Source: Gordius sp. MW1 (Eukaryota > Nematomorpha > Gordioida > Gordea > Gordiidae). From it: a DNA stretch of 64,000 nucleotides. The notes under the pieces are model-generated. The model saw nothing but the letters and a program-made list of their open reading frames with translations, made no database searches and was not told the DNA's origin. This document shows positions 10,906 to 61,947 of the stretch, piece after piece. The translations under genes were made by a program, and so were the position numbers. Position 1 is the first letter of the stretch. Each line of letters opens with the position of its first letter. The stretch is from the NCBI GenBank assembly GCA_964036665.1, contig OZ038532.1:4278001-4342000 (forward strand), given 5' to 3'.

Positions 10906-11000
10906 TTTTAATTGCTATGCAATTTATGGGCTCGTTTTTTGTTGTCCGTCCGTCCGTTGTCCGTCCGTCCGTCCGTTACCCTCCTATCTATTTGCATTGG
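10906..11000. repeat. ATTGCTATGCAATTTATGG / GTCCGTCC repeat family
   Basis: AATTGCTATGCAATTTATGG is followed by a (CCGT)n run. The same unit appears, complete or partial, near 4650-4700, 11209-11228, 22549-22600, 35920-35941, 41905-41922 and 46170-46310 in either orientation. It sits directly against a truncated palindromic-family terminus (10870-10906). Confidence 0.6.
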
Positions 11001-11021
11001 GTATATTAGGTTATCGATTTT

Positions 11022-11138
11022 CTAAATTAATGCATGAGAAAGGGTGCCCCACCCCTCATCTCTATCTCCCTCGCTGTGTTATTTTTTAAATTAATGCATA
11101 AGAGGTGCCCCACCCCTCATCTCTATCTCCCTCGCTTT
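11022..11138. repeat. Two-copy direct repeat of about 63 bp
   Basis: TTAATGCAT(G/A)AGA...GGTGCCCCACCCC followed by TCATCTCTATCTCCCTCGCT occurs at about 11027-11075 and again at about 11090-11138. Confidence 0.85.
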
Positions 11139-11254
11139 CGGGCGGGGTCGGGTTTTAATTGCTACGTTAAATTATTATATAATAAACATAAATAAAAGTT
11201 GTTTACTTTTAATTGCTATGCAATTTAACTAGTTTTTGGGTTAGAATCCCGGAG

Positions 11255-11935
11255 TTTTTTTCGACTCTTATGATTGTTCTTGTTACTATCATTGATAATA
11301 AGACTTTTTGGCCGTCGGCTGGCTGCTGACCAATGAAAAAAATGACCATTGGCCAAAATGTGAATCCGAGTATATTTTTTCGTTTTTTTTGACTATTATG
11401 ATTGTTCCTGTTACTACCATTGCTATTATGACTTTTTGGCCGTCCGCTGGCTCCTGACCGATGGAAAAAATGACCATTGGCCAAAATGTGAATCGAAATT
11501 ATTTTTTTCATTTTTTTTGACTATTATGATTGTTCCTGTTCCTACCATTGCTATTATGACTTTTGGCCGTCCGCTGGCTGCTGACCAATGGAATAAAATG
11601 ACCATTGGCCAAAATGTGATTCGAAAACTTTTTTTTCCTTTTTTTTTGACTATTATGAATTTATATCCACTTTTACCGTGTCCTGGCTGGTGACCAATGG
11701 AAAAAAATGACCATTGGGCAAAATGTGATTCGAAAATTTTTTTTTCGTTTTTTTTTACTCTTATGAATTTATATCCACTTTTACCGTGTGCTGGCTGCTG
11801 ACCAATGGAAAAAAAAAAACCATTGGCCAAAGTGAGCATCAAAATTTTTTTTCCGTTTTTTGGCTATCATTGATTTATAGAGTGTCTGTTGGTACTGACC
11901 AATGGAGAAAAAATGACCATTGGCCAAATTTTTGA
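11255..11935. repeat. Satellite-like tandem array, six units of about 97-128 bp
   Basis: Units share GGCTGCTGACCAATGG, ATGACCATTGGCCAAAATGT and a poly(T)/GACTATTATGA tract. The GACCAATG anchor recurs at 11328, 11456, 11583, 11692, 11800 and 11897. Each unit contains a CCAATGG...CCATTGG inverted repeat. Long open frames on both strands are by-products of the periodicity. Confidence 0.9.
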
Positions 11936-12339
11936 TTTAATTAAAAATTGTTCAAATTCAACAAAAAATTTCTCCCAACAATTCTGCAAATTCTTAACAT
12001 TGTGATGTTTTATAATATAATGTTTGTTAGACCCATAATCACTAAAGGCCATAAAAACTAATGTAATACGCAACTAGATGCAAACACTAAATCTAACCCT
12101 AACCCTTGCCTATATTACATTTTGCCTATATTACATTTTGCCTATAAATGGAAAATTTGTATAAAATTAATTAATCATTAGGCATTTAATACCCCCCTAT
12201 ACTATAGGCATTTTCGCCCCTTCCCACCTTTCTCGCCCATAAATTGCATAGTAAATATGATACATTTATACGAAGTACAGATGAGTCGTCCCCCCTTCCC
12301 TTCCCCTCTTCCCTTCCCTTCTCCCCCTTCCCACGAGGG

Positions 12340-12512
12340 CCGAAGGCCCGAGTTTGGTTTTAATCGACTAAACATAAACAGGCCAAAGTTTTTTGTTCCG
12401 TTTATCTTAGTCTACCTCTAAGCTGAGTCAAAATTTGAAAAACAGATCTGACCATTAGTCTTAGTTGAACCAAAGGTAGACCGACCAAAACCCAGCCGTT
12501 TCTACAACACTA
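12340..12512. mobile_element. Palindromic-family copy next to talin exon 1
   Basis: The right terminus AACCCAGCCGTTTCTACAACACTA ends at 12512, 162 bp before the talin start codon; the left arm GGTTTTAATCGACTAAACATA is recognisable. It may overlap the talin promoter or 5' UTR. Confidence 0.6.
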
Positions 12513-48800: not shown

Positions 48801-51800
48801 TCTCCCCTATGGCCCCAAATATTAGATAAAATCACTAGGGAATCAACGTTGGTATTTTTTAGCGCCGCCACATGTACCTTATTTTTTGGCTACAATTCTG
48901 GACATGACAAAAGAATACACTGATTGCTGGTTTGCAACTCCCACATTAAGAGTCATCGAAATAATCGGAGACTAGCACTTATGATATGGCTATTTTATGC
49001 AAACTCTAATTTCACTCTAGGAGCCCCTTCATTGTTACAAATTATTCATATATGTGTTTTGACAATATATGACAATCTAACCAACCATTTGGTCAACTAA
49101 CACCAAAAAAACGACGCTCCGCATCCTTTTTGGTTTTTGGAAGCATTTTTAGCGAACTTATTGGCAGTATTTAGGTTAAAGTTTTATATTGCATACCGCT
49201 AACTTTAGATTAGAGGCCGTCATTTCCTTACAATTATGCTTACAATAAAATTCTATTTTTTCCACGGTGGAATAGGGTGCCGCACAATATGCAGAAGGGG
49301 AAGATGGTAAAGCCAACATTTTGGATGGTGGAAAATGCGTTGCCATCAAGTGCCGAGATATGTTAGACATCTTGCATCAGGTATATATATCATCTTATTC
49401 AATTCCTTTTGTTTTTTATTGAAGTTATGATGTCTAGTCTCTTTTTTTTCTCATGTCATTTACAAAAATTACTTCTTAGTTCGTTTTATTCAAAAGGTTA
49501 TTAGAGACATGCCAGGGGTGGCAGGGAGAGGTGTTGCCTCTCCCTAAATTTTTTTCCCCCCTTCTAATTCCTAATCTGGCTACGCCCATGATTAGAACGA
49601 ACCAATTTGAATAAAAAGGAAACCACTCTCAAAACGAAATCAATGTTCGAATAAAATTCAGTAAAGCGTTTCAAAAATGGAAGCTATTTTCATAAATTTG
49701 TATATTTTGTGCATATTTCTTCAAGATCATAACAATTCAACATCATGAGCACGGGAATAACATTGCGCGTTTGCGGGGCGAGATGGATCGTTCATTTTCT
49801 GACCTCAACCTCATTCTGGACCGATTTACACGTTTAACTAACGAAACCCTTAGAGGTATGTATATATCATCCATGAGAAGCTAGCACTGAACAAACAAAT
49901 AAATGATCATTCTAACAATAGTAGGTAGAATACGAGTTAAAATAAAATAGACTCTTGCAAATTTTCTTAAGGATTTCTCATTTATATCTTAATTTGATCC
50001 TATGCCTTTTTTAATCGTTTTATTATCTTTGTTTACATAAACGGCATTCCTATTTATTTAATTTAACATAGGTAAGAGTTTAGGCTTGCATCGTTAATTA
50101 TAAGACCAAGGTAAACGTGGGCTTTGAAGCTCGATTAAAGCCACATTTTACCCTTAAACAAGATTTGATATGAACCTATCCATCTACAAATAAATTAATC
50201 ATATAGGGCTTGTCTTAATATCGGATTCAGATTCACGCGCGAATTTATTTTTGTCTAACTATCCAATCCAATTTCATGAATCAAGCTCGGTTGCATTTAT
50301 TAATATTTTGTTTTTAGATATAGTTAAAAACGTTTTTTTTTGTTTATTTCAACTCTTGAGATTAAATCTAATTTGCTAATACCTAAGCCCCTGCACATCG
50401 CGTGCAAGAAGAATCGAATCAAAATCATAGAACTACTCCTCAAACGGGGTGCATCTATAGGTTGTACCACCGAGAGTGGTCTGACCCCCCTGCACGTGGC
50501 TTCCTTCATGGGCCACATGAACATTGTGATTTACTTGCTTAAGCACGGAGCAGAAACTGACGCCCCCACCGTGCGTGGCGAAACCCCACTTCACTTAGCT
50601 GCTCGGGCCAATCAAACCGACATCATGAGAATCCGCTTCACGTGGCAGCTAGGCTGGGCAACACGGACACAGTTATGCTCTTGCTCCAGCACGGAGCTGA
50701 CGTCAGCGCTAAAACAACCGACGATTACACTCCGCTGCATTTAGCAGCAAAAGAAGGTCATTCTGAAGCGCTTGCTGCACTTTTGGATCAGGCTCCTGCA
50801 TCGCAGCTTCCAATGCTACTCACTTCCCTATCTACCAAAGGCTTTTCCCCGCTTCACCTCGCCGCAAAGTGCGGCAGCGTCAAAGTTACTAAGCTCTTAC
50901 TCGAGCGCGGCACCCCCGTTGACGTACTTGGCAAGAATGAGGTTACGGCGCTTCACGTCGCGTCGCATTACGATCATCCGGCCGTAGTTAATTTGCTGCT
51001 TGAGAAGGGCGCTTTACCCGCCGCAAAAGCCAACAACGGCTACACACCCCTGCACATAGCCGCTAAGAAAAATTAAGACGTCGCCCATCTGCTTTTAGAT
51101 CACGGGGCCGATTCAAATTCCCTTTCTCGCTCCGGGTTCGAACCCGTCCATTTGGCTGCCCAAGGCGGGTTCGAAGATATGACTTCGCTCCTGCTAGATT
51201 TCAAGGGAAACCCCAACGCCTCATTAGGAAAAATTTTGCATCTTTCAAAATCGCTGTTATGTTATGCGTCTGAAAAGTAAATCTGCTGTGAATTTGAAAT
51301 TAAGACACAACTATGTTATAACCTGTACGGTGATTTTTGCGGCGCAGTAAAATCCGATATTAAGACAAGCCCATAGGGGGAATAAGATAAAATGTTATTT
51401 TACCTCTATACAACATTTTATTCCATACCTATTCTAACAAAAACATTAATAGTTACGACGGCTCAAGATGGGTCAGCTTGCTATTATTTCAGCGATTGTG
51501 GTTCGGTCTACAGCAACGACACCAGTAGTATTTCGGGGCACCACAACATGCCCCCTTCTAATAATATGGCCACCGAAAACGAGCTTCTTAGCGCAGCCTC
51601 TGCCATCGAAGCGGCCGCTCGAAATTTAGCTGTGTTGGATCCCGTGTTAAGACCCAAACCACCCCCTAAATCCGTTACCGCGAAAAACATTGAATACAAG
51701 GTACTAGTGTTGCGAAAAGACCTGGGTTTTGTTTGTACACCTTTGATTCAATGGGACTAACTGTCGACTTTGGTCAGTTTTTCAAATTTTGACTGAGCCT

Positions 51801-59300: not shown

Positions 59301-61947
59301 CCCTAAAATATTTTCGGACGATTTTTGGGAGCTTGGGTTAGCAGCACCGTCCGATTCGTGGATGGTAGAAAACTTTTTGTGAAATTTGCCTCTGATACTA
59401 GAGTCTTGCGATCTATAACGAATGGATTGAAGTAAAATTTAGGATGCTTTAGCATCATTATTTAAAATAGCCGCGAATTTATAAAATTTAAATACCTAGA
59501 GCCATTTCCTTGCCACCTTTGTTGTATGGTCAAATATAACGGTTTTTTAAATTAAGGTATTTGTTTCAAATTATCTAATAATAATCTTACCTGACGCTCA
59601 CTTAATTTCAAGAGCTGGTTTCGCTAATTTTAAATACCAAGTTTTCCTTACTTTAACTGCCAAGTTCTCCTTACTTTACGCAATAATAATTTTTATAGGT
59701 GGCCAACTTTCTCCGTATAATTAAGCTATAAGAATATTTATCTTTACTTAAACGACCGAAGCCCAAAGAATCGTTATCAGAAATAATAAATTATATAATT
59801 TTTATTTTTTACGAAGAAGGGGAGATGAAATTTGCTTCCCCTTATATATAGGATTTCTATGGTCACGTCAAAACACTCGATTTCAGACCATGATCTATAT
59901 AAAAGTTAAAAGTTTTTAAAAAACACTTAGCACGTATATAATTTTTGGGCCCACAAAAAAAGAAATCCAAATAGCATATGATATTTAAATGCAAGAAATT
60001 GCATTAAATTTTTTTGAGACAAACAAAGTTTTTGAATACACATTCCACACCATTTAGCCCGAAGAAAATCCTTGTTCCAATACGATTTCTATAAAAACCC
60101 ATTACAAAACGCCCACTTTCTAAGGGCTTGTCGTAATATCGGATTTTGCTGCGCAGCAAAAATCGTCGTACGGGTTATAACATAGCCGGGTCTTAACCTC
60201 GAATTTACAGCAGATTTACATTTCAGACGCATAACATAACAGCGATTTTGTAAGAAGCAAAATTTTTCCTAAGCTTAAATGCTGTATGTTTTCAAATTTT
60301 TAAGTATTAGCAAAGTTTAGATTTAATCTCAAGACTTGAAACAAACAAACAAAAACGGTTTTAACTATCAAAAACAAAATATCAATAATTCCAATCGAGT
60401 TTGACCTATGAAATTGAATAGGATATTTAGGCAAAAATAAATTCGCGCACTTTGAATCTGAATCCGATATTAAGACAAGCCCTAAAACAACGACAAACTT
60501 CTCCACAAGCCAGGCACCTAATATCAATTGTTGAACGGTTGGGTCCAAAGATTTTTTGATCTGTTTTTCTTAGTTGCATATATAGACAAAGGTTTGACCC
60601 AAAAACCTTTGGCCCGACTAAAACCAAAAGTCGACCAAACAAAACCCAGCCGTTTTTACAACACTAATATCTAAACACACCTATCGGCTTCGGGGTCGGT
60701 GAAAACTTCAGTTTCACGGGCTCGCTCCTCTAAGATGTGGCTAAGTGCGGCCGGTCCACCGTTTTGCTTGCGAAACAGAATGAGCAGGGCTAAGGCTACT
60801 CGGTAAAGCACTTTACAGCCTTCTGCCAAGTAGCAATCAACTATGCGGACTAGGTAGGGGAAGGGGAGATCTCGGAAAATCCAGTGGAGCCAATGAGCGT
60901 AAACGCCTTCGAGTACCGCTGCTGCTACAGCGTCGTCGCGCTTGACGCTTGAACGCGACGCTGAGCCTACCTATACGTAAGTTATGTAAGTTTACAAAAG
61001 GTTCGATGTTCTAAGTTATGTAAGTTTACAAAAGGTTCGATGTTCATAACTTCTAATAATTAAATTCATAAAAATATGGAAAAACAAAAATTTATCTTTG
61101 AGTGCTAGGATATTATGAGGTAATAATAATAGAGATCTGCATGGGCCAAGCCCTAACAAGGTTGAATAAAAAGTCCGGGCACTGCTTGGGTCTATATAAG
61201 TATAATAACTTAAATTTATTTCGGCATATTTCAAAATTTAAGAAAAAAGGCTTGCACGTTTAAAGAAGAATAAATTTTGTTCATTATTATAAAAGACTAG
61301 GAAATTATAATAAAAGAATTAATTAAAATTATACTTTATTTTCATAATAAGTAAAATTGTATGTTTTTATAAACTAAAAAACCTAGTAACTCACATAACT
61401 AATTAATTTAAGCATGTTATCAAAAGAGTTACTCCAACAAAAAACATCGGTTTAGAGGTTCAAAATGAGTCAAAGACATTAGCTATTTTGGAGCAGCACA
61501 ACTCTCTAATTTAAACTTTTAACAAACAATCTAGGTTCACAATATCAAAAGTGTCTTGAAAACGTTTATAGATTAAATTTTCGCTAATAAGGCACCATTG
61601 TAAGCCTAAAAAAGCTAGGTCAAAAAAGGCAATTTCAAGTGCTTTTTACTGCTACCGTTCCTTACAGAGTTAACGTGCCTGGCAATTTCCGAAGCCAAAT
61701 AGGTATGGGCCGAAGGTGCGAACCGAGCCGCTAATTCGGCCAAAACCAGACCTGATGCGGCAAACGATGTTTTGGTTTGAAAGATGAAAAAAGCGCGATG
61801 AGCGCTCAGCAAATGGCATATGCTGGCGTAAGTGTCCTGCTCCGACATGTAGTGCAGGAACAGGCTAGCCAAGAAGTATATTTGCGGAGCGTAGGTTATG
61901 TCCGGCCGCGTGTACTCTATTACGCTCACTATGCGTTTCACCGCAAA
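56250..61947 (-). CDS. TBC1D24: TBC1D24/Skywalker-like TBC-TLDc protein, 3' seven exons (5' incomplete)
   Basis: TBC1D24 (Drosophila skywalker) combines a TBC Rab-GAP-like domain, usually lacking the catalytic Arg/Gln fingers, with a C-terminal TLDc domain. It regulates vesicle trafficking and synaptic endosomes. The seven minus-strand exons total 1743 bp including the stop (about 580 residues) and join in frame: 61666-61947, 60681-60970, 59079-59412, 58463-58690, 57622-57816, 56779-57056, 56250-56385. Visible order is the C-terminal half of TBC, a Ser/Thr/Asn-rich linker of about 190 residues, and a full TLDc. The N-terminal TBC exons, including any catalytic motifs, are not seen and must lie upstream beyond 61947, most likely past the window. 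Other TLDc proteins lack the adjoining TBC half, so assignment to this subfamily is firm. Confidence 0.92.
56779..57056 (-). CDS. TBC1D24: TBC1D24-like exon: TLDc core
   Basis: Encodes [14 protein letters not shown], then [20 protein letters not shown] and [20 protein letters not shown]. These are the hallmark TLDc strings (FGAYxSxxW, FFGTGExFVF, IGGGG). Joins the previous exon as QND-VFGAYCS. Ends in phase 2 at GG/GTATGC. Confidence 0.97.
57622..57816 (-). CDS. TBC1D24: TBC1D24-like exon: TLDc domain start
   Basis: Encodes [20 protein letters not shown], then [20 protein letters not shown] and [14 protein letters not shown], the start of TLDc (family: LWSWLPxRxxxxxPxLLFxxxEHGxSLxxFYxxxxxxEPTLLLIKT). 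Phase 0 both sides. Confidence 0.95.
58463..58690 (-). CDS. TBC1D24: TBC1D24-like exon: linker
   Basis: Encodes [20 protein letters not shown], then an Ala/Ser/Gly-rich stretch ending [16 protein letters not shown]. Phase 0 both sides, with good splice sites (CACGTAG acceptor). Similarity to known proteins is low. Confidence 0.75.
59079..59412 (-). CDS. TBC1D24: TBC1D24-like exon: serine-rich linker
   Basis: Encodes a low-complexity linker ([34 protein letters not shown], ending QFSPHKLLK). It has no domain homology, but it takes phase 2 from the TBC exon (completing an Arg codon) and leaves in phase 0. Its acceptor is AT-rich. Confidence 0.78.
60124..60482 (-). mobile_element. Empty sister of the ankyrin-carrying miniature transposon
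   Basis: 359 bp, inverted relative to 50206-51372. Termini GGGCTTGTCGTAATATCGGA and the complement of TCCGATATTAAGACAAGCCC; 3-bp direct repeat TAA at 60121-60123 and 60483-60485. The interior aligns to both arms of the cargo-loaded copy, with about 40 bp of AT-rich sequence where the ankyrin fragment sits. Confidence 0.85.
60528..60666. mobile_element. Palindromic-family element next to a TBC1D24-like splice donor
   Basis: Right terminus CCCAGCCGTTTTTACAACACTA ends at 60666, 14 bp from the minus-strand donor (60680-60679) of the exon ending at 60681. The left arm TTGTTGAACGGTTGGG is worn. Confidence 0.72.
60681..60970 (-). CDS. TBC1D24: TBC1D24-like exon: end of TBC domain
   Basis: Encodes [20 protein letters not shown] followed by [20 protein letters not shown], the strongly conserved end of the TBC domain in TBC1D24 ([19 protein letters not shown]). 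Ends in phase 2. A palindromic miniature element lies 14 bp beyond its donor. Confidence 0.96.
60978..61045. repeat. Perfect 34-bp tandem duplication
   Basis: TAAGTTATGTAAGTTTACAA plus AAGGTTCGATGTTC occurs twice head to tail, immediately upstream of a TBC1D24-like acceptor on the minus strand. No mismatch between copies suggests it is recent. Confidence 0.9.
61666..61947 (-). CDS. TBC1D24: TBC1D24-like exon: middle of TBC domain
   Basis: Encodes [20 protein letters not shown], then [20 protein letters not shown] (family: CPQL...ALLLHYxxxxxxAxxxLxxLL), ending [15 protein letters not shown]. The acceptor is TTGCAG. Phase 0 both sides. Confidence 0.92.

Follow-up and report, generated by a model that had tools for sequence, protein, structure and literature searches.

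The window analysed here is a stretch of 64,000 nucleotides from the nematomorph Gordius sp. MW1. Positions 50206-51372 are occupied by a PIF/Harbinger-type MITE that lies in a talin intron and carries ankyrin coding sequence at its centre. The host gene is talin, since a peptide joined from the downstream exons has Talin-1 as its best PDB match (E 1.4e-17). The intron, placed by eye and by reading frame, extends over 49856-51476 (about 1621 bp), of which the MITE with its cargo makes up 1167 bp; an acceptor at 51513 was rejected because the frame is not kept. A preliminary description of this locus was right about the talin intron, about perfect 22-bp terminal inverted repeats (TIRs) with matching 3-bp flanks, and about some 840 bp of ankyrin-repeat coding sequence: the TIRs (50206-50227 and 51351-51372) are 22 nt long and 100% complementary (22/22), the flanks are ATA/ATA, and the ankyrin sequence measures 838 bp. 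The ATA/ATA flanks of the talin-intron MITE (window 50203-51375) deviate from the TAA/TTA rule of its family. The features are listed below.

50203-50205, no strand: left 3-bp flank ATA (target-site duplication, TSD), equal to the right flank; family rule TAA/TTA
50206-50227, plus strand: left TIR, GGGCTTGTCTTAATATCGGATT (TIR comparison and genome TIR search)
50206-50386, plus strand: left MITE arm, consensus positions 1-183, last letters ...ACCTAA (family alignment)
50387-51224, plus strand: ankyrin cDNA patch, 838 bp, made of pieces of exons A, B and C (gene at C1:1626240-1628190)
50387-50633, plus strand: exon A segment, 247 nt, 4 changes, all synonymous; both ends ambiguous by 2 nt
50634-50935, plus strand: exon B segment, 302 of 315 nt, 93% identical, changes mainly synonymous (parent alignment)
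50936-51224, plus strand: exon C segment, joined to B exactly at the GT-AG junction (parent alignment)
51225-51372, plus strand: right MITE arm, first letters TAGGAAAAATTTTGC (family alignment)
51351-51372, minus strand: right TIR (TIR comparison)
51373-51375, no strand: right 3-bp flank ATA (flank comparison)
60124-60482, minus strand: cargo-free sister MITE, also in the window, 359 bp, TAA/TAA flanks; arms 28 bp apart

The MITE family and its empty form

A search of the genome (212 Mb) with the 22-bp terminus, as the preliminary description had proposed, found 1604 termini at no more than 2 mismatches, 804 forward and 800 reverse. A reversed control pattern gave 0 matches, so the occurrence of the TIR is not due to chance. 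A search with the element gave 80 matches from the 40 scored of 1159 candidates. In the set used for checking both arms (L011-L048, the sister MITE and a copy in the parent ankyrin gene, altogether 39 distinct places), the arms are 9-47 bp apart in 38 of 40 loci, that is, in 37 of the 39 distinct places, with a mode of 28 bp; one arm is missing in L025 and in L040. The preliminary description had noted that the arms are continuous in the sister element; they are indeed 28 bp apart there, as in most copies checked, and they are shared genome-wide. The family consensus, built from 33 short copies (32 distinct, 305-378 bp) that were chosen for similarity to the target, has 27 nt separating CCTAA and TTAGG at the capture site. 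Folding the sister MITE as DNA (z -1.91, with 3 of 100 shuffles as good) was uninformative on the break discussed below.

PIF/Harbinger elements generate 3-bp TSDs of the form TWA (TAA/TTA). Flanks of TAA/TAA or TTA/TTA were present in 33 of the 45 TIR-pair rows from the fetched loci, a count in which nested pairs and the target are included and one place appears twice (as L020 and L048). DDE_Tnp_4 (PF13359) matches lie inside L054, a 3.5-kb relative complete from TIR to TIR, and in L086 about 1.2 kb inward from its TIR; the far TIR of L086 was not found in 7 kb. The larger relatives also have a second ORF of 96 aa, whose match to BESS is weak, with E 1.2e-4 and a score of 22.2 bits where the cut-off is 21. 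Together with the TAA/TTA flanks, DDE_Tnp_4 and the second ORF place the family with PIF/Harbinger, in agreement with the Harbinger affinity proposed earlier. As to the autonomous Harbinger with the same ends for which a search had been suggested, relatives bearing DDE_Tnp_4 exist, but no intact autonomous copy with these ends was found among the relatives fetched. Named relatives of the transposase are 42-54% identical to it among the best 120 of 5667 protein matches. L054 (C1:24663566-24667674) is a palindromic, head-to-head element, with the transposase and the second ORF mirrored on both strands.

Some other family copies also contain inserts. Among 21 neighbouring TIR pairs, drawn from the 100 exact termini listed, 17 span 270-353 bp and the remaining 4 span 1369, 1382, 2645 and 3509 bp. 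The 3509-bp unit is L054, with its transposase ORFs. Most of the sequence in the 1369- and 1382-bp units (L052 and L053) is also found in the relatives that bear the transposase, and stretches of about 90-160 bp are without a match. The 2645-bp unit (L055, C1:16575548-16578792) has exact family TIRs, and only its ends are common to the family, leaving an insert of about 2.5 kb. Its interior matches a repeat at window positions 10908-12355 at about 83% and other fetched loci in part, and about 680 bp are without a match in any locus compared. In L024 (C8:28570700-28571700) the right arm contains a 231-bp insert (locus positions 258-488), for which no match was found among the loci compared and no long open frame was seen. 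Nineteen further loci (L087-L105), out of 58 unpaired exact termini, all show a continuous family block with no inserted stretch (19/19); a second TIR was not found in three of them (L092, L093 and L104), and L103 has one additional separate hit. No ankyrin or other recognised host-gene insert was found among the other family copies read, the inserts of L024 and L055 being unassigned.

The ankyrin cargo, its parent gene and its junctions

The parental gene, which the preliminary description had recommended looking for, was found on contig C1, and its exon structure and divergence could be compared with the cargo. A genome search with the cargo alone gave 2 candidates, both scored, namely this locus and the parent gene only, although a miss in such a search does not prove rarity. 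The parent exons A (1626240-1626536), B (1627126-1627440) and C (1627894-1628190) are 297, 315 and 297 nt long, all in phase 0, and are bordered by AG on the 5' side and GT on the 3' side. The gene has more coding sequence downstream of the point in exon C where the cargo stops. The best PDB matches of the parent protein are Ankyrin-1/-2, and the top identities in a protein search are 82-83%, covering only 27-33% of the query (among the best 120 of 7499 matches).

Both parent introns, A-B of 589 bp and B-C of 453 bp, are missing from the cargo. At the B-C junction the cargo reads CTTGGCAAG followed directly by AA.., where the parent reads CTTGGCAAG, then GTTAGC...GCATCCAG, then AACG. The absence of both introns, one of them at an exact GT-AG junction, means that the source was spliced RNA. 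Of the two sources considered in the preliminary description, one large exon or spliced RNA, the latter therefore stands, while the former gives way to three exons with their introns removed. At the A-B junction the intron is gone together with 52 exonic nt, which leaves a frameshifting gap with an overlap of TC. Aberrant AT-AC splicing was considered for this junction and rejected, as the TC overlap yields no AT...AC reading that gives the junction observed. The cargo starts 11 nt into exon A (8 nt if the overlapping TA is assigned to ankyrin) and stops 5 nt short of the inferred donor of exon C; the ambiguous letters are TA at its left end and TC at the A-B junction. The exon C part covers a 292-nt span with a 3-bp deletion and an in-frame stop (CAA>TAA). 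With its frameshift and stop, the patch is dead sequence, and no function is assigned to it. Inverted repeat pairs around the captured exons were examined as possible makers of exon circles: pairs of 22 nt (77-86%) flank A-C and pairs of 44-49 nt (84-86%) flank B-C.

Within the MITE, the cargo took the place of about 27 bp, exactly the consensus stretch between CCTAA and TTAGG. The CCTAA...TTAGG that flanks the cargo (50382-50386 and 51224-51228) is a 5-nt inverted repeat already present in the empty MITE. The preliminary description had named a TSD with poly(A) nested in the element as the mark of a simple retropseudogene; at the cargo junctions we found neither an A-run beyond the MITE consensus, hence no poly(A), nor a TSD or duplicated arm sequence beyond that consensus. 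Junction homology is 0-2 nt at the left (TA, then a mismatch), 1 nt at the right (T) and 2 nt at A-B, which chance often gives. The lack of poly(A) and of duplicated MITE sequence, the loss of 27 bp and the spliced exons together indicate an RNA-derived fragment truncated at both ends.

Relative age and mosaic divergence

Outside the TIRs, 22 of 282 sites in the target arms (7.8%) depart from the family consensus, and 29 copies longer than 330 bp differ from it by 5.3% on average (range 2.5-7.4%); the age comparison is approximate, as the consensus was built from copies resembling the target. The cargo differs from its parent at 37 sites, 28 synonymous and 9 nonsynonymous. Were it as old as the arms, it should have about 46 nonsynonymous changes (Poisson P 2.8e-11; Fisher test on rates P 1.2e-5), and still about 31 at the mean divergence of 5.3%. 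The deficit shows that the cargo is younger than the arms and that the MITE was resident before the patch. Because the cargo is much younger, it represents an insertion into a resident MITE and not a gene-capturing transposon lineage.

Neutral sequence with the observed transition bias would have 70% nonsynonymous changes, from which the cargo departs (P 9.3e-9). The differences are also unevenly distributed, with 27/334 in exon B taken together with the initial 32 nt of C, 4/247 in exon A and 6/260 in what remains of C (Fisher P 4.2e-5; window permutation P 6e-4); the segment limits were set after the data had been seen, for which the permutation test corrects in part. Divergence thus steps from 1.6% to 8.1% at the A-B junction. 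The cargo is in this sense a mosaic: window 50634-50967 differs from C1:1627126-1627925 at 27 of 334 sites, mostly synonymously, next to neighbours that are about 2% different. In the rest of exon C, 5 of 6 changes are nonsynonymous, as in decaying sequence. Mostly synonymous differences imply that much of the divergence arose while both sequences were under selection. That the cargo itself is still under selection was rejected on account of its frameshift and stop, so the synonymous excess must predate the capture or lie in the parent. Accordingly, the source of the message was a divergent allele or a paralog missing from the assembly, or else the reference parent has since been converted. 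As read from the sequences, the differences in the middle suggest a divergent source allele or a template-switched cDNA.

Origin of the patch and comparison with known systems

The locus looks like the result of a single event and not like a mobile element that gathers host genes and distributes them. We think it probable that a break in the old talin-intron MITE was repaired with a reverse transcriptase (RT) product, spliced ankyrin cDNA, joined in by end-joining. An old non-autonomous PIF/Harbinger MITE would already have been resident in the intron when a double-strand break occurred, presumably in its central AT-rich stretch, with the loss of about 27 bp. A reverse-transcribed piece of spliced ankyrin mRNA, truncated at both ends and probably made by the RT of some retroelement, would have closed the break, and its ends may have been sealed by end-joining with 0-2 nt of homology. 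At the 52-nt A-B gap with its TC microhomology, a jump of the RT would fit the step in divergence, possibly as a switch to another transcript; a later deletion of the 52 nt is also possible. This order of events is read indirectly, from divergence and the family consensus. Several observations count against the account: the junction microhomology is weak; each end of the cargo falls near an exon border (8-11 nt and 5 nt away), a coincidence not expected of an RNA piece taken at random; and the reference parent is an imperfect source, as the middle 334 nt are 8% different.

The preliminary description had instead proposed a Pack-MITE-like capture by a family that acquires pieces of host genes and spreads them. 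Spreading of this kind was rejected on the copy count from the cargo search, the spliced source and the age. That the unit arose by Pack-TYPE capture, in the course of transposition or through the fusion of adjacent copies, and then moved into talin is quite unlikely as well. Like Pack-MULE, Pack-CACTA and Pack-PIF, it has host coding sequence between non-autonomous TIRs; intact 22/22 TIRs and matching flanks enclose the whole of it, and relatives with the same ends and a DDE_Tnp_4 transposase exist. However, Pack-TYPE elements are described as acquiring chromosomal DNA, for example between neighbouring copies (PMC8903248), which does not explain a spliced cargo. Neither acquisition of chromosomal DNA nor movement with the element was found here: no second cargo copy was found, the cargo is much younger than the element, and the arms are two halves of one element, not two copies. 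A LINE retropseudogene, nested in the MITE by target-primed reverse transcription and later deprived of its poly(A) and TSD, is unlikely, if less readily dismissed. The introns are removed, exactly at B-C and with 52 exonic nt in addition at A-B, and A/T-rich sites lie beside the insertion, LINE-1 preferring TTTT/A (PMC5110952, as far as excerpted). Yet an A-run and a duplicated target are lacking and 27 bp of target are lost instead, the cargo stops within exon C although coding sequence continues downstream in the gene, and extra deletions would be required in a young insert.

Capture at the DNA level from an ankyrin allele or paralog already lacking these introns would account for a middle segment that is 8% different, nearly all synonymously, which indicates that the source was not exactly the assembled allele. 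We regard it as very unlikely, because the cargo search of the assembly gave 2 candidate places only, this locus and the intron-bearing parent. The parental ankyrin gene has its own antisense copy of the same MITE family (L009, C1:1624719-1625025). This copy lies about 1.2 kb ahead of exon A, from which it is probably separated by one exon or more, and it is the one copy seen in 18 kb around the gene. A family copy that near the captured stretch has a chance of about 2% (assuming 802-1100 copies), higher if introns are favoured, and the coincidence is suggestive at most. Homology-guided, RNA-templated repair, in which an ankyrin transcript with the antisense MITE would anneal to the broken MITE in talin and be copied there, the template changing to a second ankyrin transcript at A-B, seems to us highly improbable. 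If true, it would make MITEs common to genes into landing pads for the exchange of spliced exons between unrelated genes.

Repair with ankyrin cDNA has known counterparts, and the patch in the old MITE is real, readable and ordinary in kind. With the MITE family as the empty site and the parent gene as the source, the order, the loss and the junctions can all be read, which makes this an unusually readable natural case of a piece of mRNA written back into an animal genome without the hallmarks of a retropseudogene. It is also a caution that a gene-bearing MITE is not always a Pack-MITE; copy count, parent exons and age comparison can tell them apart. We found no spliced cDNA patch inside a MITE in the portions of the literature searched. 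In animals, host coding fragments inside a DNA transposon are known from the transduplication by Turmoil-1 of C. elegans, which, as excerpted, has them in its inverted terminal repeats, unlike the central patch described here (PMC2572040). In RT-product-mediated double-strand-break repair, named RMDR by its authors, pieces of spliced Pcnt and Inadl mRNA filled breaks that had been induced in mouse zygotes; in the excerpted results, no captured gene had poly(A), short microhomology was seen for Pcnt and five others, and RMDR features were also recognised in two MuERV-L insertions of natural mouse DNA (PMC4516963). The ankyrin patch likewise stems from the interior of a multi-exon spliced mRNA, is cut short at both ends and has no poly(A), but it is a natural event inside a DNA transposon, whereas the mouse breaks were induced and mostly show short microhomology (PMC4516963). 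Human class 2 templated sequence insertion polymorphisms (TSIPs) have a microdeletion, microhomology and no TSD, and TSIP templates include cDNA of several spliced exons, the class not being stated in the section available (PMC5110952). The likeness to them lies in a patch of distant sequence with a microdeletion, no TSD and no poly(A); the difference is that TSIPs are polymorphic in people and ours is known from one assembly (PMC5110952). An internal spliced fragment, a target microdeletion and the lack of both TSD and poly(A) are all found in the ankyrin patch, which on this comparison would fit RMDR or a class 2 templated sequence insertion, apart from its weak junction microhomology.
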